Source: Octadecabacter algicola (GTDB lineage: Bacteria; Pseudomonadota; Alphaproteobacteria; Rhodobacterales; Rhodobacteraceae). Taken from it: a stretch of DNA of 64,000 nt. Both the position numbers and the translations under genes were made by a program. This document shows, piece by piece, positions 32,687-42,936 of the stretch. Numbering within the stretch: position 1 is the first letter of the stretch; every line of letters begins with the position of its first letter. The notes under the pieces are model-generated. The model did not search any database, was not told where the DNA came from, and saw only the letters and a list, made by a program, of their open reading frames with translations. The stretch covers positions 186,001-250,000 of the forward strand of contig NZ_JAKGAR010000002.1 in NCBI RefSeq assembly GCF_021532625.1, given 5' to 3'.

Positions 32687-32858
32687 GGGTTTTGTCTTTC
32701 TTTGGGTCGGTTATGCCCACTATCTACATCAAGTTTGAGATGGCAAGCGGCCCGAATGCACACCTTGCCGCGGATAATTCGATAGTTTCACATTTGGGGT
32801 GGTTTTGCCGTGCTCTGCAGGGGTAGTGTTTGGAAAAGGTAATCAATCGAGGGCAAAA

Positions 32859-33692
32859 ATGCAGTTTTCCACAGTTCCAACCGTTCGTTTTGCTCTAATG
32901 GGATTGGCCATTGGTGTTTTGTCAGCTTGTGCTGAACGGGTTGAGATGATCGGCGGAATTCCAGCCGACCAGATCGTTGAGGGATACGGGTTCCTTGAGG
33001 ATAATGGATACAACCTGCCACCGATCCCCGCTGAGTATTTGAGCGAACTGAACCGTCGTACTGTTGTAGAATACAATGGACCGGAAGCTGCGGGCACAAT
33101 TGTCGTCGATCCCCATGCCAAGCTTTTGTACTTTGTCGGTGATGACGGCACGGCGCGCCGTTACCCTATTGCTGTCGGGCGTCAGGGCATGAGCATGAGC
33201 CGCCCTTCAACCGTGCAGTTGAAACGCGAATGGCCCGGCTGGACGCCAACGCAAAACATGTTGCGCACCCAACCAGAAGTTTACGGTCCCTTCGCACGCG
33301 GTGTTGAAGGTGGTTTGGCAAGCCCGTTGGGCGCTCGGGCGCTGTATCTGTTCCAGAACGGGCGCGACACGCACTTCCGTATCCACGGCACCAACGATTT
33401 GCCGTCTATCGGTAACTCGGGGTCTGCTGGATGTATCCGCATGTTCAACCACGACATCATTGATCTGTTTGACGATGTGCCAAACGGCACACGGGTTGTG
33501 GTGCGGACCTATGCTGCCTCCGTTGAATTGGAGGGCGAAGCGGTTGCCAATCGCGGTGTGATCCTTGAGCCAAACATCGTTGATCCGGATTTGATTTACG
33601 GCACTGGCGAAGATGATGCTGTTGAGTTGGATGAGATCGCGGAAGACGTCGCCGTTGATCCGCTGAGTGCCAGCACGATTTCGGGCGGGTGA
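32859..33692 (+). CDS. L,D-transpeptidase (YkuD family), lipoprotein
   Basis: A 277-residue protein with a lipoprotein-type signal peptide (lipobox LSAC, Cys near residue 21). The YkuD catalytic motif is present: HGTNDLPSIGNSGSAGCIRM spans the conserved His and Cys (about 180-200). Such enzymes form 3-3 peptidoglycan crosslinks or attach lipoproteins to the wall. The start at 32859 is chosen because it leads directly into the signal peptide. The C-terminal extension is acidic. It converges with the next gene with a one-base gap. Confidence 0.92.
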   Translation: MQFSTVPTVRFALMGLAIGVLSACAERVEMIGGIPADQIVEGYGFLEDNGYNLPPIPAEYLSELNRRTVVEYNGPEAAGTIVVDPHAKLLYFVGDDGTARRYPIAVGRQGMSMSRPSTVQLKREWPGWTPTQNMLRTQPEVYGPFARGVEGGLASPLGARALYLFQNGRDTHFRIHGTNDLPSIGNSGSAGCIRMFNHDIIDLFDDVPNGTRVVVRTYAASVELEGEAVANRGVILEPNIVDPDLIYGTGEDDAVELDEIAEDVAVDPLSASTISGG

Positions 33693-34233: not shown

Positions 34234-34380
34234 ATCGTGCCATATGCCTCATCAAATTGCATAGGTCTGGATTTCCTGACCTGTTCGGGCCGATTTTGCG
34301 CATTTCTAGCTACTCGCGCCATGAAATTGTCGTTAACAATACCTACATAACACGCAACGAATTCTTACAGTGAGGACCAT

Positions 34381-35457
34381 ATGGCCGATTTTGACGCGCA
34401 AATCCGTAAATCCCAATCCGAGGTTGCCGAAGCGCAATCCAAGATTTCAGAGCTAACGAGCCGGATTGAAACCGCACGTCAGAAGATGGCCGAGGGGACG
34501 GATATCGCTGTCGACATCGAGAATGCCTCGCTTGAGGACGTGCATGCACACACCGAACTGATGAACGCTAACATCGCTGAGCTGATAATGGGTCTAGACG
34601 ATGTGACTGCAGGGTTCCAACAGGACTTTGACGAGATGCGCAGCAAGACCGGCTGGGAAAGCTTTGTTGGGTTCTTTAGCGGGGCCAAGTCGGATTCCAT
34701 GCGCGAAGAACGTATGCGGTCTGCTTCAGTTGACGACAAATTGCAGGATTTGATTTCCAAATCCGACGTGATCACCAAGCTGCTGGAAAACCAGTTGCTG
34801 ATCCTTGAGGATCAGAAAGCCAAGGTCGAAGGAAACCTTGGCGGCACGTTGGAAGAACGCGAAGCCGTTGTTGGTGAACTAGAAGCGGTCCGTGCTGAAA
34901 TCTTAGCTGCTGATCCAAAGATCATCGCTCTGGAAAACAAGATCGCCGTGGAACAAGACGCCGCTGCGCGCACCAAGCTGGAAACAGAGTTGGCAGCTAT
35001 GAACACGGCCTATAACGAGGCGGTGCAGCAGGAACAGGTAAAACTGGCGAAGTCCCAAACGCTGGAGCGCTACATCGAAAAGGGCAAAACCTGGATCGAT
35101 TCATTGCAGAACCAAGCGGCGACGCAGATGGTGCTGATCAACAAACTGCAAACAGACACCAAGCAGCGTGTTGTTTTGTATGACGCCCTGACGAAATCTT
35201 TGAAAACAGCGCAGCAACAAGACGTAGCGCACCGCATCAACGAGATCGGTGTGAAGACGGACCAAGAAGCGCAGACAGCTATGGCTGCGATTGGGTCCGC
35301 CACCAACGCGCGTATGGCCGAAATGATGGAAGCCCACGAGGACCACATGGTGTTCGCGCGCGAAGTGCTGGAGCAAAAAGCCAAAGCGGATGACCGTTTT
35401 ATGCGCCGTTTTGCGAAGATCGTCGAGAAGCACGACAGCAATGAATATGGGGCTTGA
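34381..35457 (+). CDS. large coiled-coil protein, first gene of the AAA operon
   Basis: A 358-residue, highly charged, alpha-helical protein with no signal peptide. It has long heptad-like stretches at about residues 1-40 and 125-300, separated by a GWESFVGFFSGAK segment (about 97-109) that may be a hinge or membrane-contacting patch. It starts after GTGAGGACCAT, a good ribosome site. I do not recognise the family; the layout faintly recalls TelA-type proteins but this is not secure. It opens the operon that runs to a terminator at 42.9 kb. Confidence 0.75.
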   Translation: MADFDAQIRKSQSEVAEAQSKISELTSRIETARQKMAEGTDIAVDIENASLEDVHAHTELMNANIAELIMGLDDVTAGFQQDFDEMRSKTGWESFVGFFSGAKSDSMREERMRSASVDDKLQDLISKSDVITKLLENQLLILEDQKAKVEGNLGGTLEEREAVVGELEAVRAEILAADPKIIALENKIAVEQDAAARTKLETELAAMNTAYNEAVQQEQVKLAKSQTLERYIEKGKTWIDSLQNQAATQMVLINKLQTDTKQRVVLYDALTKSLKTAQQQDVAHRINEIGVKTDQEAQTAMAAIGSATNARMAEMMEAHEDHMVFAREVLEQKAKADDRFMRRFAKIVEKHDSNEYGA

Positions 35458-35468
35458 GCGCGTCTTCG

Positions 35469-35774
35469 ATGAATAGAAAACCTGCGCTTTTCCTACCACT
35501 TCTCGCTTTGTTCGGAGCCGCTGGCCCAATCGCATCTGAGGCCGACGACCTAGGGTGGTCTACAGTTGAGGGCACATCTGCTTTTCTGGCAGAAGGCGGG
35601 CAAGAACTTGTTTCGTCGGTGACTTATCAATTGTCGGCCAATCGGCAGGTCATCGTAACGTTTTGGAAAGTGCCAACAACGAATGGCGTTGATACGGTGT
35701 TTCGATGCTTTGATGTAGTCTCCGACGGCTTCGAGACCATTACCGCAGAGTGTCAGGTCCCTCAATATGACTGA
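35469..35774 (+). CDS. small predicted exported protein
   Basis: A protein of about 101 residues from the ATG at 35469, with a signal peptide (MNRKPALFLPLLALFGAAGPIAS). A TTG at 35454 overlapping the coiled-coil stop codon is an alternative start. The mature domain has two Cys residues (RCFDVV; AECQV) that may pair. No family recognised. The end overlaps the duplicated fragment below by eight bases. Confidence 0.65.
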   Translation: MNRKPALFLPLLALFGAAGPIASEADDLGWSTVEGTSAFLAEGGQELVSSVTYQLSANRQVIVTFWKVPTTNGVDTVFRCFDVVSDGFETITAECQVPQYD

Positions 35775-35907
35775 CACCGCTTACGACTATTTCCAGCTTG
35801 AAGACATCCGTGCCACGCGGCGGTATTTTGGCAAGCTTAGGAAGACCGTTGGTCATCTAACCCGTGGTGAGGTGGCGCATGATATCAAGAAAGGCCACTT
35901 TGAATGA
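35767..35907 (+). pseudogene. 46-codon duplicated N-terminal fragment of the downstream 373-residue gene
   Basis: This frame reads MTDTAYDYFQLEDIRATRRY..., and about 35 residues closely match the start of the protein at 36190 (MTSDTAYDHFQLEDTRVTRRY...). Roughly 25 of those 35 positions are identical, and the DNA also matches strongly. The similarity ends near residue 37; the last residues (AHDIKKGHFE) are unrelated. The offset between copies is 423 bases. It starts inside the preceding stop and overlaps the next start (ATGA), so it may be translated as a small peptide or be a relic. Confidence 0.75.
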
Positions 35908-36200
35908 GGTACACTGCTGATGATTACATCGCGATGCGGGCCAACGCAGAGCGGGGCAAATGGTGGACTGCGGCAATCCTGATTTTTGCGGCTATCGTGG
36001 CCGTGCACGTCTTATTGAATTACGTGACGACCTCTGACGCGCCAGCGCGTGATGGGGACACTGATGACTTGTTTGAGACCGTGCTTTTATACCTGCTCTC
36101 GATTGGGGCGGGTGTTTACTGCGTCGTCATGGGCTATCTCAAAAAGAAGTTTACCTTGATGGACGGCGGCGATGAGACTGGAGAATCCGGTGACTTCTGA
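35904..36200 (+). CDS. small membrane protein between the duplicated ends
   Basis: A 98-residue protein with two predicted membrane segments (about 21-41 and 62-80), a soluble charged N-terminus and an acidic C-terminus (DGGDETGESGDF). No family recognised. It lies between the partial copy and the full copy of the 373-residue gene, overlapping the former by four bases and the latter by eleven. It may have been captured by the duplication. Confidence 0.7.
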   Translation: MRYTADDYIAMRANAERGKWWTAAILIFAAIVAVHVLLNYVTTSDAPARDGDTDDLFETVLLYLLSIGAGVYCVVMGYLKKKFTLMDGGDETGESGDF

Positions 36201-37311
36201 CACTGCGTACGACCACTTTCAACTTGAAGACACCCGCGTCACGCGGCGCTATTTTGGCAAGTTCGAAAAGATTATCGGCCATTTAGGCCGCGTTGCAGCA
36301 ACACTTGAGGCGGAACGACGGTTGTCCAAGCGCGATGTTGAAGTGATGACGCGCTATATCATGGCGCTGAATTACACCTTCAAAGCGCTGGCGCATAAGT
36401 ACCATTTCAGCGGTCGCTTTGCGCATGCGGGAAAGCTAACGTTTGACCGCGTGGACAGCGGATTTCCCGTCTATTCCGAATTGCTGACCATGGCCAATGA
36501 TGCGGCGCAAGCCTCGCGGCATCTAGAAGGGATGCGTTCTGTTGAGGCGTTGAAACAGGATATGGTCCGCGTGATCCTGTCCGAACAGGCGATCCCCTCA
36601 AAATTGCAATATGCGCTGTCCCAGCGGCTGTATTATGAAGAACTGGCCAAGGGCGAGCTGTTCTGGGCCCGCAATGATCCAACAGCGATCTGGTTGGGTA
36701 ACAAGCAGCAAATGCGCCGTGATTTCATGGTGCATTGGGCGGTTTATGACAGCGTCAACAACTTGCCGACAATCTACATGATGGAGCTTGAGGATTCAGG
36801 ACGTGTTGGGCTGCCAAAGGATGATCGTCGCTGGCCCGAAGTGCAGGCGCATTTGATGGCACAGTCGTTGGGCGGGTTGAAATTGCTGACCATCGCCAAA
36901 GGGTTTGATGAAGACTTTGACGATCTACATCCTAAACGTCTGCGGCGGTTCCATGTGGGGCCGATGTATTCCAATGCGTTCACTCGTCAGGCTGGACCGT
37001 TGCGCGAAGTGCTTGAATTGGCGCGATCCCCCGTGGGGGAAGACTGGGCGCTGGTCTGGACGGAAGAAGAACTCGTGTCGAGCGAAACGCGCCGCGAGAA
37101 ATCCGGTTGGTTCGGCACGGTGGAACGCGAAACATTCGCGCTGGACCCGTTTGCAGGGCACGGCGCGGAAACCGGAGCCACCAAAGTCGAGCGCAGCATC
37201 ATCCTGCCCGAACGCCCCTATCAGGCACTGGAAGAACGCCGCCCTGCGGGGTTCGCGGATGTGCGTAAGTTTGTGGTGTCGCCCAAGGGGCGGGTCTTGA
37301 GTTATAAGTGA
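36190..37311 (+). CDS. conserved protein of unknown function in the AAA operon
   Basis: A 373-residue soluble protein. The GTG at 36190 is chosen because it gives MTSDTAYDHF, matching the duplicated fragment's start; an ATG at 36172 would add six residues. The first ~120 residues are mostly helical and basic. The second half has mixed strands and the motifs VHWAVYDSVNNLPTIYMMELED and HVGPMYSNAFTRQ. I do not recognise a domain. It overlaps both neighbours and is probably a partner of the AAA ATPase encoded downstream. Confidence 0.75.
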   Translation: MTSDTAYDHFQLEDTRVTRRYFGKFEKIIGHLGRVAATLEAERRLSKRDVEVMTRYIMALNYTFKALAHKYHFSGRFAHAGKLTFDRVDSGFPVYSELLTMANDAAQASRHLEGMRSVEALKQDMVRVILSEQAIPSKLQYALSQRLYYEELAKGELFWARNDPTAIWLGNKQQMRRDFMVHWAVYDSVNNLPTIYMMELEDSGRVGLPKDDRRWPEVQAHLMAQSLGGLKLLTIAKGFDEDFDDLHPKRLRRFHVGPMYSNAFTRQAGPLREVLELARSPVGEDWALVWTEEELVSSETRREKSGWFGTVERETFALDPFAGHGAETGATKVERSIILPERPYQALEERRPAGFADVRKFVVSPKGRVLSYK

Positions 37312-37694
37312 GAATGCTTTGCCTCATATCAATGCTATTGCTTTCAGCATGTGGATCGGTTCGCCCCTCGGCTGATCGATTGGCGGAGTTGGTGGAGTCA
37401 CGTCCAGAACTTGTGACCCCATCGGTTCTAAAGAACCGTGGGTTTTTCCGGATCAGCGGAATGATGGGACCACAATTGCAGTCGGGTGAGTGTTACGAAA
37501 AAACGGCTGTCGGTTTGCTTGGACTGGCGGCAGGGGTCGATATCGTGCGGGTCTGTTTTGATACAGATGGGCCGATCATCATCTCACGTCACACACATGG
37601 TTGCCCTTGGCACGAATTTTATCCCAACCGTGACGATGCTTGTTGGGAAGAACCAAATTTTAGCGAAGAGACACAGGTAAGGTTAAGTCGATGA
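37308..37694 (+). CDS. small lipoprotein in the AAA operon
   Basis: A 128-residue protein with a lipoprotein signal peptide, lipobox LLSAC (Cys15). The mature part contains four further Cys (GECYEK, VCFD, GCPW, ACWEE), compatible with two disulfides in the periplasm. The GTG at 37308 overlaps the preceding TGA; an ATG at 37314 is an alternative start. No family recognised. Confidence 0.7.
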   Translation: MRMLCLISMLLLSACGSVRPSADRLAELVESRPELVTPSVLKNRGFFRISGMMGPQLQSGECYEKTAVGLLGLAAGVDIVRVCFDTDGPIIISRHTHGCPWHEFYPNRDDACWEEPNFSEETQVRLSR

Positions 37695-39625
37695 GCCAGA
37701 CAAGTGACACAATGGAGCTGCGCGAAGAAGACATTCGCAAGCATTATGACGCGGCCACGGCCATGGTGCAGGGGTTTGATCACACACCTCGCATTGCGGA
37801 AACCAAAGAGGCTGCTCCGGTCGAGAAATCCAGCGGCATCGGTACGCGGCGACGGTTTCGCACGACGACACCGGGTTTGGTGACCCGTAGCACGGCCCGC
37901 ACCGAGGGCGTGCAGTTGTCTGGGCGGATCGAGAGCGCGGATGACGGGGACGGTTTAACGTCGCCCACACAGGCCAGCGTGTTGCATGGGCTGCGCCGCG
38001 CGTTGGCGATTGCTTTGGCGGTGGGTGAACAGTTTGGTGAACGCACAGGTCTGGCGGACTTGAAACGTGCCAATCTGGAAGGGTCTTTGCCGGCGGGCAA
38101 GAAGACCGAGTTCAGCGAATTGCTGACGGCCGAGGCGCTATCTGTTCTGTATGTTTTTGCCAATTCCACGTCGTTCCTGTTGTCGTCCCATGCCGGAGAA
38201 GAAAGCGTCGAAGTTGGCGAAGTCGAAGAGGTTTTGACCGACAATGCCACGCTCGCGCTGCATGGTGCGTTGTGGGAGCTGGATCAAGACATCGGATTGT
38301 TTGCGGGCGAAGAAGGCCGTCTTGTCCCGACGGTGCTTGCCTATGCTGAACAACTGATGGCCAAGATCGCGGCTCGGGCTAGCACGGCGGGCCGTCTGGC
38401 AAGCTTTGTTGATGCAAGTTGGAAGGTCGAAGCCGACGATCTGACGATCCGTGGCTTTAGCCCTGCACGGGCAGCCAAAGGGTCGACGCTCACGATGTCG
38501 TTCAAAAAACCTAACGAGGTCGTCGGCAACCACATCGCCAAGTATCAAGCCATGAAGTTGGCCAAGATGGTTATGGCCTATGACTTTGAGCGCAAGCTCA
38601 ACCCGTTTGCCGAACTCGGTGGGTTTATCTTTACGTTCATGGGGGATGGCGCGCCGGGGACGGGGAAGACCACGTTGATCCAGATGATGGCAGGGTTGAT
38701 TTCGGAGTACTGCAAGATTGCCGACTATCCGTTCCGATATCAGAACCTGAGCACCGACAATATCGACAGCTATCAGGGTAAATCGGGCCAGAATGCAAAG
38801 GCATTTATCAACAATGTGATTGACCCGAATGTCATTGGTTTTGGCACGATTGATGATATCGATCAGTTGGCGGGTAAACGCGGGGATCGTCAGTCTTCGG
38901 CGGGGCAGTTGGAAATTACCGCTGTGCTGATGGAAAGCTTTGCAGGTGCCAACACGGTTGTGCGCGGCAACTGCACCTTCGGGATGTTTTCCAACTACCC
39001 CGAGAACGTGGATGATGCGCTGCGCCAGCGGGCGGGCGCGCGGTTCTTGGTGGATGGTCCGCAAACGCGGGAGGATTACGTCGATATCCTTTATCTGCTT
39101 ATGGGGAAAAACCATGACATCCCCGTCGGTGACCATGAGGTGTTCAGCGCCCAAGAGATCAAGAAAGCTGTTGCTGCGTCCTTTGAGGGGCACTCCAAAC
39201 CTCACGAACCCGGTTTGCTGAACGTGTTTGATCGGGTGTCTTCTGAAATTGGCGAGTTGGATACCATCAACAAACTCGGGACGTACCTTAAGGGTATTCA
39301 AGAGGCGGATAACCGTTTCACGGGCCGTGCGATTAAGAACATCACGGACGCCGTTAAGGTGCGCGCGATGGACTTTGAATTGCCGGATGAGTGGATGGAA
39401 AACCCAGAACTGTTCCTGACCAAGGACTACGACACCAAGCTGGCGATGATCAACGATATGCGTCAGCCGATCACCGTTGAAATGGTCATCCAAGAAATCA
39501 ACCGCTACGCGGACTCAGAATTCCGCTATGCCGATAAATCCGACGAGGTGGCGATCGATAACATGGTGCGGGATTTTGAACGCTCCGAAGAAGCCAAAAG
39601 GCGGTATATGGAGAGCAAGGGGTGA
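37691..39625 (+). CDS. large AAA family ATPase of unknown role
   Basis: A 644-residue protein. The N-terminal ~300 residues are helical and contain no named domain. The AAA core begins near residue 308. Motifs are Walker A GAPGTGKTT (about 320-328), Walker B FGTIDDID (about 394), sensor-like GMFSNYPENVDDALRQ and an Arg-rich RQRAGARF that may hold the arginine finger. The C-terminal ~120 residues are helical. It is preceded and followed by four-base overlaps. I recall similar ATPases next to DUF6638 proteins in Rhodobacteraceae, but no function is known to me. Confidence 0.85.
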   Translation: MSQTSDTMELREEDIRKHYDAATAMVQGFDHTPRIAETKEAAPVEKSSGIGTRRRFRTTTPGLVTRSTARTEGVQLSGRIESADDGDGLTSPTQASVLHGLRRALAIALAVGEQFGERTGLADLKRANLEGSLPAGKKTEFSELLTAEALSVLYVFANSTSFLLSSHAGEESVEVGEVEEVLTDNATLALHGALWELDQDIGLFAGEEGRLVPTVLAYAEQLMAKIAARASTAGRLASFVDASWKVEADDLTIRGFSPARAAKGSTLTMSFKKPNEVVGNHIAKYQAMKLAKMVMAYDFERKLNPFAELGGFIFTFMGDGAPGTGKTTLIQMMAGLISEYCKIADYPFRYQNLSTDNIDSYQGKSGQNAKAFINNVIDPNVIGFGTIDDIDQLAGKRGDRQSSAGQLEITAVLMESFAGANTVVRGNCTFGMFSNYPENVDDALRQRAGARFLVDGPQTREDYVDILYLLMGKNHDIPVGDHEVFSAQEIKKAVAASFEGHSKPHEPGLLNVFDRVSSEIGELDTINKLGTYLKGIQEADNRFTGRAIKNITDAVKVRAMDFELPDEWMENPELFLTKDYDTKLAMINDMRQPITVEMVIQEINRYADSEFRYADKSDEVAIDNMVRDFERSEEAKRRYMESKG

Positions 39626-39966
39626 GCGACGCCTTTTCATCAGGGCTGCTGCTCCCCGCGATCTGTTTGGCCGCTTTGGGCTGGACGGTGCCGCGGATGC
39701 TGGCGCTGTGGTGGCCTGAAGGGGTGAAATGGCTGATGTTTTTGGCGCTGGTCAGCACGCTTGTCATGGCTTTGGCTGGGGCCGTGGTTTTTGTGGTGAT
39801 CTATGCGGCGCAAGGCGTCAGTTTGGCTGACCTGTGGGCGACGGGCGGGTTGTCCGTCACGATCCACTTTATGAAGCTGAGCATCGTATCCGCGCTGTTG
39901 TGGGGGCCGTTGATGATTTTGTCTTTGGCAGGTGTGCCGAAGAATTGGGTGAAGGAGGTTTGGTGA
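39622..39966 (+). CDS. small multi-pass membrane protein
   Basis: A 114-residue protein with three or four hydrophobic segments (about 7-25, 33-62, 78-105). The GTG start overlaps the AAA stop (GTGA). No family recognised. It ends at the point where the operon's tight overlaps stop and the inserted GIY-YIG gene begins. Confidence 0.7.
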   Translation: MSDAFSSGLLLPAICLAALGWTVPRMLALWWPEGVKWLMFLALVSTLVMALAGAVVFVVIYAAQGVSLADLWATGGLSVTIHFMKLSIVSALLWGPLMILSLAGVPKNWVKEVW

Positions 39967-39995
39967 AATGATTTTTGTCTTGAAAGGGTCTGGCA

Positions 39996-40523
39996 ATGGC
40001 TGCGACTAGTCTAATCAAGCTCTATGGGGAGTTTTGGAATCCCGACATTATAGATTGGGGAGCAAGGGGGGCAGGAAACGCCGCTCAATTTCTGGGTGAA
40101 GTCAAAAAAGACAAAAAGAAATACAAAGCGAATTTCTTTGGCGCTCAGGGAATCTACATTCTGTTTGATAGCTTCAAGCCCGTTTACGTGGGTAAAGCGT
40201 TTTCGACTTCGATCGGCAAGAGAGTGAGAGACCACATGTCAGACCGACACGCAGGTCGGTGGGACATGTTTTCGTGGTATAGCACCTGCACTTTTAAGAT
40301 TACCGATTCAACTTTGAGGAACGCTGGAACCAGACAGCTGAGGCCGGAGACCGTCGTAAATACGTTAGAAGCGCTTGCGATCTTAATTGCCGACCCTGCT
40401 CTAAATCGGAAACGCGAGAGCCTCCCCAATGCGATGGAAGTTTTTCAACAAGACAACCCGAATCCAGTTACTGTCCGTCATTATCTCGAAACAATATTAA
40501 GCCGGCTTCCCGATGATGAGTGA
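39996..40523 (+). CDS. GIY-YIG nuclease family protein
   Basis: A 175-residue protein with the complete GIY-YIG catalytic set: G52-I-Y54, Y64-V-G66, basic R76/R78 with H80, E125 and N137. The N-terminal 50 residues have a helical KKDKKKYK stretch that could bind DNA. It is separated from its neighbours by 29 and 9 bases rather than overlapping, and its codons and base composition are visibly AT-richer than the rest of the operon. This suggests a later insertion. It is expected to nick or cut DNA; target unknown. Confidence 0.8.
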   Translation: MAATSLIKLYGEFWNPDIIDWGARGAGNAAQFLGEVKKDKKKYKANFFGAQGIYILFDSFKPVYVGKAFSTSIGKRVRDHMSDRHAGRWDMFSWYSTCTFKITDSTLRNAGTRQLRPETVVNTLEALAILIADPALNRKRESLPNAMEVFQQDNPNPVTVRHYLETILSRLPDDE

Positions 40524-40532
40524 AAAACAGCA

Positions 40533-41882
40533 ATGAAACGTCTAATCTTACGCGGTCTCATGTTCGGCAATCTGATCCCCGTGGTCAGCCCTATTCTGGT
40601 GGAGCGGTATAACCGCGCGTTGGAGCGCCTTACGGGGCAGCGGACCGCGCTCACTGATTTTCATGTCGATATTTCGGGGTATTCTCCCGAGATTGGTGAT
40701 GAGTTTGGCGATGAATTGTACCTCAACCATCACGGGGTGAACCGTCAGTTTATTCTACTAACGACCGACCAGAAGACCGCGCCGTTGCTGAATGCCAAAT
40801 TTTCAACCTCTCGCGGGATTTTGCGCCAGTTCATTGAGGCCAATGAGGCGCAGTTGTTTGCCCTGACTGCGCGCGATGCTGTCGCAGGGGAATTGGTAAA
40901 TTCGGTCTTTGCGCTGGATACGCCTGCGCGGCTGTTTGACATCGGCCATGTTGAGATTGAAGCCGATACGACTGATGGGGCGGTGGCGTCCGCGACCAAA
41001 TTGGGCGGGATGATTGACCGCTTTATGGGCGAGGAAGATGCGTGGTGTGATGACGTGCTGATTGGCGAGATGATCACGCTGGCAAAGGACACGGGCGACA
41101 TCACCCGCAACCCGTTGACGCTCAAAACGATGACCTTTGATCAGGACAATTTCTGGACCGCTCATTTGGGCGGGTTCTATCTGTTTCGCGATGTGGAAGA
41201 ACCTGCGGCGATTACCATGGGCGACAAGGAGAGCTTGGGTAAATTACCGATTGAGCATCTGTTGCAACGTGACGAACGTTCGGCGATTGCGCAGTTTTTG
41301 AAGGTGAATGATCTTGCCGAGCCGATCATCGAGGCGCGCGGCATCGATAGTGCTGCGATCCTGCGCCAGAAAATGGACTTTATTGTCGCCGATGTAGCTG
41401 CTGGTCTGGGCGAGGATCTGAGCCGTGCAACGCGGCGCGATCTGCGACGCTTGGGTCGGCAGTATCATGACAAACTGCCTGCCGCGTGGCGCGGTCTTGC
41501 GGACCTTGTGCGCTGGGCTGAAGATGGTGGACCTTGGCCCAAGATCGACAGCGAACACCCCGCATATTTTTACACGTTACGCGCCAAAGACCATAAAGAC
41601 GCGGATTTGGTGAACATGTTGTTGGCCGAACTGACCGAAATGGATGTGCGCCAACTGTTCATTTGCCACAAAGAAGCATTCTACCGAGCCTATATGGGCT
41701 GGCCGGACGAAAAGAAGGCTTATGTGGCGGAATTCCTTTCAAACGAGTATCAGGTGGATAAAGCGGGCACTCGTGATGCCCTGTTCGGCCATGAGGCGGC
41801 GATGGAAGAAGCTCCAGCAGCCCCCAAAAGGTCAACGTTGATCGATAGGGTCGGGCCTTGGGGCGCGGTAAGGAGGAGATGA
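40533..41882 (+). CDS. conserved protein, DUF6638-like
   Basis: A 449-residue soluble protein. The N-terminal block GLMFGNLIPVVSPILVERYN and ISGYSPEIGDEFGDELYLNH matches, from memory, DUF6638, found beside an AAA ATPase in Rhodobacteraceae. The C-terminus is basic and Pro/Ala-rich (APAAPKRS). Domain boundaries are unclear: residues 1-130 look alpha/beta, 200-400 mostly helical. It lies nine bases after the GIY-YIG gene and one base before the next small membrane gene. Confidence 0.6.
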   Translation: MKRLILRGLMFGNLIPVVSPILVERYNRALERLTGQRTALTDFHVDISGYSPEIGDEFGDELYLNHHGVNRQFILLTTDQKTAPLLNAKFSTSRGILRQFIEANEAQLFALTARDAVAGELVNSVFALDTPARLFDIGHVEIEADTTDGAVASATKLGGMIDRFMGEEDAWCDDVLIGEMITLAKDTGDITRNPLTLKTMTFDQDNFWTAHLGGFYLFRDVEEPAAITMGDKESLGKLPIEHLLQRDERSAIAQFLKVNDLAEPIIEARGIDSAAILRQKMDFIVADVAAGLGEDLSRATRRDLRRLGRQYHDKLPAAWRGLADLVRWAEDGGPWPKIDSEHPAYFYTLRAKDHKDADLVNMLLAELTEMDVRQLFICHKEAFYRAYMGWPDEKKAYVAEFLSNEYQVDKAGTRDALFGHEAAMEEAPAAPKRSTLIDRVGPWGAVRRR

Positions 41883-41883
41883 C

Positions 41884-42153
41884 ATGCAGTTCGTAAGATT
41901 GGTCGTATTCGGGTTCTTGCTGCTTGGCGTGGTTTATTTTGGCATTTCGCTTTACTCGCGATCCATTCGCAAGGAAAAGCTGGAAGATGACTGGGATGAG
42001 AATCCGCCTGAAAACGCTTCCGCTGAGACACGCGATGCCTTTATTGCAGAGGGCATGGCGAAATATGAAAGCGGGCTGCGCAAAAAGCTGATCTTGCTGG
42101 TCTTTGTCATCCCGCCGATTGTTGTCGGTACCATTATTTACTTTATCAACTGA
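41884..42153 (+). CDS. small membrane protein with two membrane segments
   Basis: An 89-residue protein with hydrophobic segments at about 4-24 and 69-88 flanking an acidic central loop of about 45 residues (WDENPPENASAETRD). No family recognised. It is one base after the DUF6638-like stop and ten before the DUF1523 gene, so it is in the same operon. Confidence 0.75.
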   Translation: MQFVRLVVFGFLLLGVVYFGISLYSRSIRKEKLEDDWDENPPENASAETRDAFIAEGMAKYESGLRKKLILLVFVIPPIVVGTIIYFIN

Positions 42154-42163
42154 GGCTGCTCAC

Positions 42164-42841
42164 ATGCGCAATATCAGACGTTTTCTTCGTATCGCCCTGT
42201 TCCTGCTTGTCGGGTTGTTCCTGCACTACGTGATGCCGCAACAAGACATCGCGCGGATCGTGAATGTGGACAGCCGGCTGCAAAGTGTTTCTGGCCTACA
42301 AAGCTGGTTTTATGCGCAAGAGGATGCTGGGACAGCCGAAAGCTCCGCTGGGCGCGATCTGCGTCTGATCTCGACCGAACGTAAGGCGACGTATTTGTTT
42401 GGACTGATCCGCGGCAACAACGAAACCATGGTCTATCGCAACGAGGATACGGGTTGGATCTATCCGCCGTATTTCAAGTTCGACAGCTCGGATTTGCATG
42501 CAGAGGCTGCGGCGGCTGTGTCATCGACAGAGCCTTATCAGTGGGTAGTCATCCGCCATTATGGCTGGCGTATTCGCTGGGCGACAATTTACCCGAATGC
42601 GGTTTCAATCCGCCCCGCCGAGAGCGAAGATTTCCGTCCATTCCCTTGGATTAACCTCATTATCTTTGCCGTGCTGATTGGTGGTCTTTTGTTTGTTCGC
42701 GCGGCGTGGGCTCAGTTCCGTGAACGCACGGTTGACCCATTGGCCGATAAGGTCGGGGATCAATATGACCATGTGAGTGCGGACTTGTCGGAACGTAAAG
42801 GTCGCATTTCCCGTTGGCTTGGAACTTGGCGCAAGAAGTAA
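42164..42841 (+). CDS. DUF1523 family protein
   Basis: A 225-residue protein with an N-terminal membrane segment (about 8-25), a periplasmic domain and a second membrane segment near 170-188. The motifs VYRNEDTGWIYPPYFKFD and QWVVIRHYGWRIRW match DUF1523. The ATG at 42164 replaces an in-frame ATG at 42104 that lies inside the previous gene. It is the last gene before the terminator, so it closes the operon. Function is unknown. Confidence 0.85.
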   Translation: MRNIRRFLRIALFLLVGLFLHYVMPQQDIARIVNVDSRLQSVSGLQSWFYAQEDAGTAESSAGRDLRLISTERKATYLFGLIRGNNETMVYRNEDTGWIYPPYFKFDSSDLHAEAAAAVSSTEPYQWVVIRHYGWRIRWATIYPNAVSIRPAESEDFRPFPWINLIIFAVLIGGLLFVRAAWAQFRERTVDPLADKVGDQYDHVSADLSERKGRISRWLGTWRKK

Positions 42842-42873
42842 CGATCTTACGATCGGGTCCTGCGGACGGCAGG

Positions 42874-42903
42874 AAGCGCCCCTTTCGGGGCGCTTTTCGT
42901 TTC
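42874..42903 (+). terminator. Rho-independent terminator at the end of the AAA operon
   Basis: AAGCGCCCC (42874-42882) and GGGGCGCTT (42887-42895) form a 9-base-pair stem with a 4-base loop, followed by TTCGTTT. It is 32 bases past the DUF1523 stop. Confidence 0.9.
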
Positions 42904-42936
42904 AAGTGCAGGTGCAAGGCCGATGTGCGTTAGATG

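Follow-up and report, generated by a model that had tools for sequence, protein, structure and literature searches.

A set of four genes that is inherited as a whole forms the core of an operon in Octadecabacter algicola (Rhodobacteraceae), and the evidence that this operon is a real unit is strong. The operon lies in a 64,000-nt stretch of DNA (positions 186,001 to 250,000 of contig NZ_JAKGAR010000002.1, assembly GCF_021532625.1), which we call the window and whose own numbering we use throughout. Eleven genes on the + strand, from 34381 to 42841, are accompanied by a 46-aa open reading frame (ORF). The well-supported core comprises g1 (34381–35457), a 358-aa coiled-coil protein; g5 (36190–37311), a 373-aa protein with a GTG start; g7 (37691–39625), a 644-aa AAA ATPase (PF00004, 3.2e-11); and g10 (40533–41882), a 449-aa DUF6638 protein (PF20343, 2.7e-236), all on the + strand. 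The unit is undescribed in the searchable literature and is filed under no known system.

The core genes travel together. From 40 of the 136 genomes of the window's order that contain DUF6638 we took one DUF6638 locus each; g1, g5, the AAA gene, DUF6638 and a DUF1523 gene occur in identical order and strand in 40/40 of these loci, and the small gene g11 in 39 (tblastn). The DUF6638 gene of one locus (L036, genome G007) contains an in-frame TAG, and one later count is therefore 39/40 for DUF6638. Among 244 genomes of the order, 136 contain DUF6638 and 136 contain the AAA gene, and the two sets of genomes are identical. In 134 of these 136 genomes the same contig carries both genes, and no more than 3.4 kb separates their starts. 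Of the two exceptions, one is G137, in which a contig break cuts the AAA gene. In the other, G211, one contig carries g1-g5-AAA and a second one DUF6638-g11-DUF1523, each set lying well away from the contig ends; the split operon thus retains both halves. G123 has only fragments of all four core genes. In G005 (L278) the core was not found, and DUF1523 adjoins a gene that resembles ORFs inserted in other operons. Over 112 loci the four core proteins show correlated pairwise distances (r 0.91–0.95), as they do over 102 ingroup loci (r 0.78–0.85); these values were obtained without an unrelated control gene, and common descent alone accounts for part of the correlation. Conservation of the gene neighbourhood across the order had been chosen beforehand as the check on the operon, and co-conservation is clear. 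All-or-none inheritance, fixed gene order and the retained split halves argue that the core is one unit.

In bacteria of sea and soil, the order of the core genes is kept in Rhodobacteraceae, Roseibium, Stappia, Sinorhizobium, Aestuariispira, Halomonas and Vibrio, and it is kept in one 359-kb jumbo-phage contig as well. A scan of named genomes yielded 460 AAA relatives, of which the best 80 were kept; these are mostly from Rhodobacteraceae, with Roseibium, Stappia, Labrenzia, two Halomonas and Aestuariispira insulae also represented. Together with four plasmid-collection records they make up 84 loci. All six genes are present in 65 and all but g11 in 5; a further 5 retain the four core genes alone of the six (L157, among these, stops at a contig end), and the remaining 9 are partial. 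The loci in which g11 was not found are L116, L150, L154, L169, L186 and L216–L219. Sinorhizobium, Shinella, Rhizobium and Vibrio come in with the plasmid collection, in which the AAA protein, g5 and g1 all occur in the same ten records; one extra record has a weak g1 match. In samples across the phylum, DUF6638 was found in 15/200 genomes and g1 in 20/249, and the AAA profile matched 5/289 genomes sampled across the class. In two of the g1-positive genomes, both of genus g322, DUF2333 comes after a diverged g1, and the stretch examined has none of the other core genes. In one Vibrio locus (L216) the four core genes precede mfd. The Vibrio records, including this one, place the core on 0.88–0.94 Mb records labelled plasmids. 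Records of V. parahaemolyticus and V. vulnificus have copies of g1 with 98% identity, which suggests that it was shared recently.

When viral contigs were scanned with the AAA profile, a single contig was found (L265, IMGVR_UViG_3300035698_035310; 359 kb). It encodes g1, g5, AAA and DUF6638 in order, with identities to the window proteins of 51, 34, 48 and 33%, respectively, and a DUF2333 gene (7.7e-91) directly upstream of g1. We read four stretches of this contig. GC content is 0.34–0.36 in all four, two of them hold 18 densely placed tRNA genes, and the encoded proteins include a DNA polymerase exonuclease, an Rz-like spanin (1.2e-4), a peptide deformylase, an ATP-dependent protease subunit, a methyltransferase and chaperones such as DnaJ; one terminase family was searched for and none was found. 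The contig is phage-like, although as a single metagenomic contig it needs confirmation. Relatives of g1 were found neither in a phage collection nor, with its own profile, among the viral contigs; the phage DUF6638 has no relative in the phage collection, and the AAA domain has one weak match there. A general mobile or phage origin of the core was set aside, as relatives are nearly absent from the phage and viral collections.

The AAA protein has the hallmarks of a motor. It scores 44.2 bits against PF00004 (cut-off 21.2) and contains a single AAA domain, no peptidase family and no transmembrane (TM) segment. All aligned AAA sequences (130/130) share the Walker A motif GxPGTGKT, the sensor Asn and three arginines. 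In the same 130/130 sequences, and likewise in the phage copy, Walker B reads Asp-Asp instead of the usual Asp-Glu. A Glu-to-Asp change at this position is expected to slow hydrolysis rather than abolish it. At the sequence level its PDB matches are weak, fall to i-AAA, Rpt4, VCP, katanin, Vps4 and fidgetin alike and favour no single clade.

The partners of the motor resemble little that is known. No Pfam family reached cut-off for g1 or g5; these scans, and those with PADLOC, took in ten of the eleven operon proteins, all except g11. The AlphaFold model of g5 is confident (predicted local distance difference test, pLDDT, 92.9; predicted template-modelling score, pTM, 0.90), as is that of DUF6638 (pLDDT 86.4, pTM 0.82). 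Searched against the PDB, neither model gave a fold match at E 0.001 (best E 0.27 for g5; none better than E 1.5 for DUF6638), and g5 had no match at this threshold among viral models. Because both folds are confident yet lack a match in the PDB, g5 and DUF6638 may be new structural families. Hydropathy predicts no TM segment in g1, g5 and AAA, and two each in DUF1523 and g11.

The membrane partner of the core varies: it is either DUF1523 with the two-TM protein g11, or DUF2333. In the window, g11 (41884–42153, + strand; 89 aa), which belongs to the core set in most Rhodobacteraceae loci, is followed by g12 (42164–42841, + strand; PF07509, 2.2e-55), a DUF1523 protein with a predicted TM segment, a soluble domain, a second TM segment and a tail, which we regard as a lineage partner. 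DUF2333 follows DUF6638 in Sinorhizobium meliloti and in a genome of the window's class (L110), and it adjoins g1 in g322 and the core on the phage contig. In a genome of the same phylum outside the class (L204), DUF2333, PspA and a PspC-like gene form one row; this PspA matches phage shock protein A in the PDB at 1.1e-37. A second genome of that family (L206) has DUF2333 beside a PspC-like gene, with PspA beyond the flank if present. The PspC and outer-membrane protein labels near DUF2333 were given by eye and are presumptive. These contexts suggest, without proving it, a role of DUF2333 in two kinds of coiled-coil envelope system. A membrane link of the unit is supported by the DUF1523 or DUF2333 partners, together with DUF2333 in psp-type operons of two genomes. 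In Pseudomonas aeruginosa, PA1767, which we take to be a DUF2333 protein, lies in the PA1768-PA1767-PA1766 operon, which is described with a predicted ATP-grasp protein and not with the AAA core. Passages of three reports (PMC7314104, PMC10187892, PMC3406104) list mutants of PA1767; the studies are an exopolysaccharide suppressor screen, work on ceftazidime resistance and a screen for virulence in worms. SMc02733, which appears in passages of a ChvI binding screen (PMC3687685), was considered and not used, its membership in the Sinorhizobium operon not being shown.

The remaining window genes fill the spaces between the core genes, all on the + strand. Downstream of g1 lie g2 (35454–35774), a small predicted exported protein with a TTG start or an ATG at 35469; the 46-aa ORF (35767–35907), a truncated duplicate of the start of g5 (99 bp, 75% identical; 35771–35869 versus 36197–36295) that overlaps both neighbours; and g3 (35904–36200), a small protein with two TM segments predicted from hydropathy. 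A predicted lipoprotein, g6 (37308–37694; lipobox LLSAC in the translation), lies between g5 and the AAA gene. Between AAA and DUF6638 lie g8 (39622–39966), a small three-TM protein, and g9 (39996–40523), a 175-aa GIY-YIG-like protein whose matches are weak (GIY-YIG in Pfam at 0.011, below cut-off; PADLOC UzuA model at 1.9e-4). In tblastn searches of 124 other operons at E 1e-3, g2, g3, g6 and g9 had no relative and g8 had relatives in 23. By sequence comparison, then, g2, g3, g6, g8 and g9 are predicted lineage-specific or recurrent passengers in insertion slots. The preliminary description, made from the sequence before this analysis, had placed eleven ORFs in one direction, and their coordinates and shared direction agree with ours. 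Its AAA, DUF6638 and DUF1523 calls are each borne out by Pfam; of the products, it named ten and passed over the 46-aa ORF and g9. The mostly overlapping junctions that it reported are borne out: those from g1 to g8 overlap by 4–11 bp (4 bp at g1/g2, given the TTG start of g2, and at g5/g6, g6/AAA and AAA/g8; 8 bp at g2/46-aa ORF, 4 bp at 46-aa ORF/g3 and 11 bp at g3/g5). From g8 to g12 the genes are separated by gaps of 29, 9, 1 and 10 bp.

The operon ends, as had been proposed, at a strong intrinsic terminator (42875–42898, + strand), a hairpin at 42875–42894 followed by TTTT. The surrounding 68 nt (42838–42905) fold with -33.2 kcal/mol (z -4.2); a simple terminator scan of the window did not list this hairpin. 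Upstream of the operon lies a gene (32799–33692) that looks by eye like one for an L,D-transpeptidase, with a relative upstream in 10/48 loci compared.

Upstream of g1 many operons share a box, a 7-N7-7 inverted repeat that overlaps a -10-like CTATAT 40–77 bp before g1 (consensus gGGgGATGTAAATngnntTAACATTcCCtATaT). A matrix trained on the same upstream regions matches 55/115 distinct regions and 0/240 controls. The window has a degenerate copy (34316–34353, + strand) 61 bp before the first gene that scores 17.4 bits, and no box was scored by the matrix in the examples printed from Vibrio, Sinorhizobium, Aestuariispira, Halomonas and Stappia. A search of 16 genomes with a pattern that allows two mismatches found the box at 18 sites, spread over 14 genomes that do not include the window's; a backward control pattern found none. 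All nine sites with 0–1 mismatch and one site with 2 mismatches lie just before g1. A wider box regulon was considered and rejected, as the neighbours of the other eight sites have nothing in common. The box thus looks operon-specific and implies a dedicated regulator, none being evident in the core.

We tentatively propose that the operon encodes a membrane-tethered AAA remodeller of a coiled-coil assembly that acts in envelope maintenance, a reading to which we give somewhat less than even chances. Shared inheritance, fixed gene order, the exchangeable membrane partner and the motor motifs are direct observations. AAA, g1, g5 and DUF6638 would form an obligate core, taken to be cytosolic, in which g1 would build an assembly on or near the inner membrane. 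An AAA ring with slow ATP hydrolysis, as the Walker B Asp would predict, might build, remodel or dismantle this assembly, with g5 and DUF6638 serving as putative adaptors or regulators. DUF1523 and g11, or DUF2333 in their place, would tether the machine to the inner membrane and report on the envelope. We infer the physical complex, its substrate, membrane remodelling and the envelope role from this arrangement. The preliminary description had envisaged one machine made by all eleven genes and spanning cytoplasm, membrane and periplasm. One functional unit and its membrane link stand. Membership of all eleven genes is not supported, since several are passengers, and a periplasmic lipoprotein and an exported protein have no place in the conserved design, as g2 and g6 lack relatives in 124 other operons. 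The membrane or stress role that it had offered as speculation stays an inference.

Several observations weigh against the proposed remodeller. Literature searches found no assigned function or experiment for the four core proteins; those on DUF6638, on PF20343/PF07509 and on the combination found no paper, whereas four papers mention DUF1523 and one DUF2333, and the earlier remark that the set has no assigned function holds for the searchable literature. The g1 profile shows no detectable sequence relation to true PspA (best domain 6.6 bits), its match to TelA is not specific, and the AAA domain weakly resembles several AAA clades. One weak N-terminal hydropathy peak in DUF6638 makes a cytosolic placement of this protein uncertain. 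The psp context was seen in 2/20 DUF2333 loci, with short flanks, and PspA in one of them. DUF1523 and DUF2333 are also found without the core, and in Vibrio (L216) neither was found beside the four core genes, so a fixed membrane tether is not universal. Three loci lack some core genes in the DNA examined: L120, a contig of a metagenome-assembled genome, has AAA alone of the core, and DUF6638 was not found in L189 (7.5-kb flank) or L185 (the 4.7 kb that remain of its contig). Contig ends or masked bases alone do not account for these three; of the other partial loci, L142 contains masked bases and the rest stop at contig ends.

The strongest competitor, which we still consider rather unlikely, is a conflict system in which the fixed core senses an attack or an invader, the genes inserted between core genes are exchangeable effectors or immunity proteins, and the phage copy is a counter-measure or serves superinfection exclusion. 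The insertion slots give this idea its appeal. Gaps of at least 150 bp, with varied ORFs, separate AAA and DUF6638 in 87/119 loci; gaps of this size also occur at g1-g5 in 64/121 and at g5-AAA in 16/123. ORFs of at least 45 aa were picked from the slots mechanically, so some may not be genes, and 107/199 of them are singletons without a relative among the others. The longest ORF is co-directional in 68/83 AAA-DUF6638 gaps of at least 300 bp, and in 64/83 of these gaps the AAA stop lies in an ATGA/GTGA context (counts without a background rate); many slot ORFs thus appear translationally coupled to the core. Proteins of the Mrr-type (2), DUF559 (2), DUF2971 (2), AbiJ_NTD4 (1) and Phd/YefM antitoxin (1) families are found among them. 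The patchy presence of the core (136/244 genomes) and its phage copy would also fit conflict. However, a small minority of the 130 slot proteins scanned matched Pfam, restriction-type nucleases among them, and only 13 families were hit, none in more than two proteins; PADLOC listed 19 models. Both scans had no matched control set, and we claim no enrichment. Core proteins match no known anti-phage system: the best PADLOC match, of AAA to the TRIP13 model, is partial and weak (7.8e-6). The AAA-DUF6638 slot is moreover empty in some operons (4 bp in L031), and L031, L051 and L053 have short intergenic gaps only, which indicates that the non-core genes are dispensable for the arrangement. The g5-AAA gap of L048 holds an insert of ~5.6 kb with genes that by eye are presumably ImuA-, ImuB- and DnaE2-like.

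Less probable still is a toxic anion or chemical stress system of the TelA type, in which g1 would be a helical protein akin to TelA but far diverged from it, served by an AAA motor of its own. Like TelA (PF05816), g1 is a long helical soluble protein of similar size, and a broad profile comparison aligned the two over the whole length (E 0.005; reversed controls gave 0.10 and 0.12). The match probability was nonetheless 7%, and g5 scored higher against TelA in the same test (16%, E 0.0016), so the score is non-specific. A narrower profile comparison was negative, none of 23 g1 members matched the TelA Pfam model at E 0.1, and a separate gene for TelA is present elsewhere in the genome of the window. 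An assignment of g1 to TelA was not accepted after the two profile comparisons, as the unrelated g5 scored higher.

We judge a proteolysis module similarly improbable. Proteasomal and FtsH-type ATPases unfold substrates for proteases, and the AAA protein might likewise unfold substrates delivered by g5 and DUF6638 for a protease encoded elsewhere. With a broader profile, the AAA domain indeed finds its best PDB matches in the ATPase of an i-AAA protease (7.4e-5) and in Rpt4 (5e-4), but these matches are weak and do not extend beyond the ATPase domain, and katanin, VCP and fidgetin are matched as well. Unlike FtsH and i-AAA proteases, the AAA protein lacks a zinc protease domain and a TM segment, and no protease family was matched among the scanned operon proteins. 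That unrelated neighbours were packed together by chance is very hard to believe: four of the eleven window genes do lack relatives in 124 other operons, but co-occurrence of the core is exact and its order is fixed across two bacterial classes and a phage.

Among the known systems that resemble the operon are two that pair a helical protein with an AAA ATPase. Phage shock protein (Psp) systems, including those that combine PspA with Vps4 or other AAA ATPases, also have a TM-less coiled-coil protein, small inner-membrane partners and, in some variants, an AAA ATPase; the passages on Psp systems in one report (PMC11237479) do not name the gene set of the operon. DUF2333 was seen beside the core, in Sinorhizobium and the phage, and in a psp-type context in two of 20 DUF2333 loci, and may be a partner in both. 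On the other hand, its sequence sets g1 apart from PspA (23 g1 proteins gave no PspA_IM30 match at E 0.1), g5 and DUF6638 have no counterpart, and no PspB, PspC or PspF match was found among the scanned window proteins. The pair of ESCRT-III (endosomal sorting complex required for transport) and Vps4 likewise joins a helical protein to an AAA ATPase, and the weak PDB matches of the AAA protein include Vps4 chains. Yet g1 has no Snf7 or PspA_IM30 match, Snf7 and MIT families are lacking in the Pfam scans of g1 and the window AAA, and the operon's Walker B is Asp-Asp; polymerisation and membrane binding are predictions for g1. Cyclic-oligonucleotide-based anti-phage signalling systems (CBASS) use TRIP13/Pch2, whose PADLOC model is the best, if weak, match for the AAA protein, but neither a HORMA protein nor a nucleotidyltransferase (CD-NTase) was matched among the ten scanned proteins. 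A bolder version of the proposal, which we consider rather unlikely, is that the operon is an undescribed bacterial system, assembled from unrelated parts, that corresponds to the pairs of ESCRT-III/Vps4 and Psp. Here g1 would be a membrane-bound polymer, AAA a slow motor, g5 and DUF6638 adaptors with folds outside the PDB, and DUF1523 and DUF2333 interchangeable sensors, and a jumbo phage would have taken the whole machine to control the host membrane in infection.

More than half of the genomes sampled from the window's order (136/244) carry the core. The operon gives DUF1523, DUF2333 and DUF6638 a common context, and with the phage copy and the link between DUF2333 and psp genes, what was a catalogue of unknown genes yields testable claims about control of the envelope.

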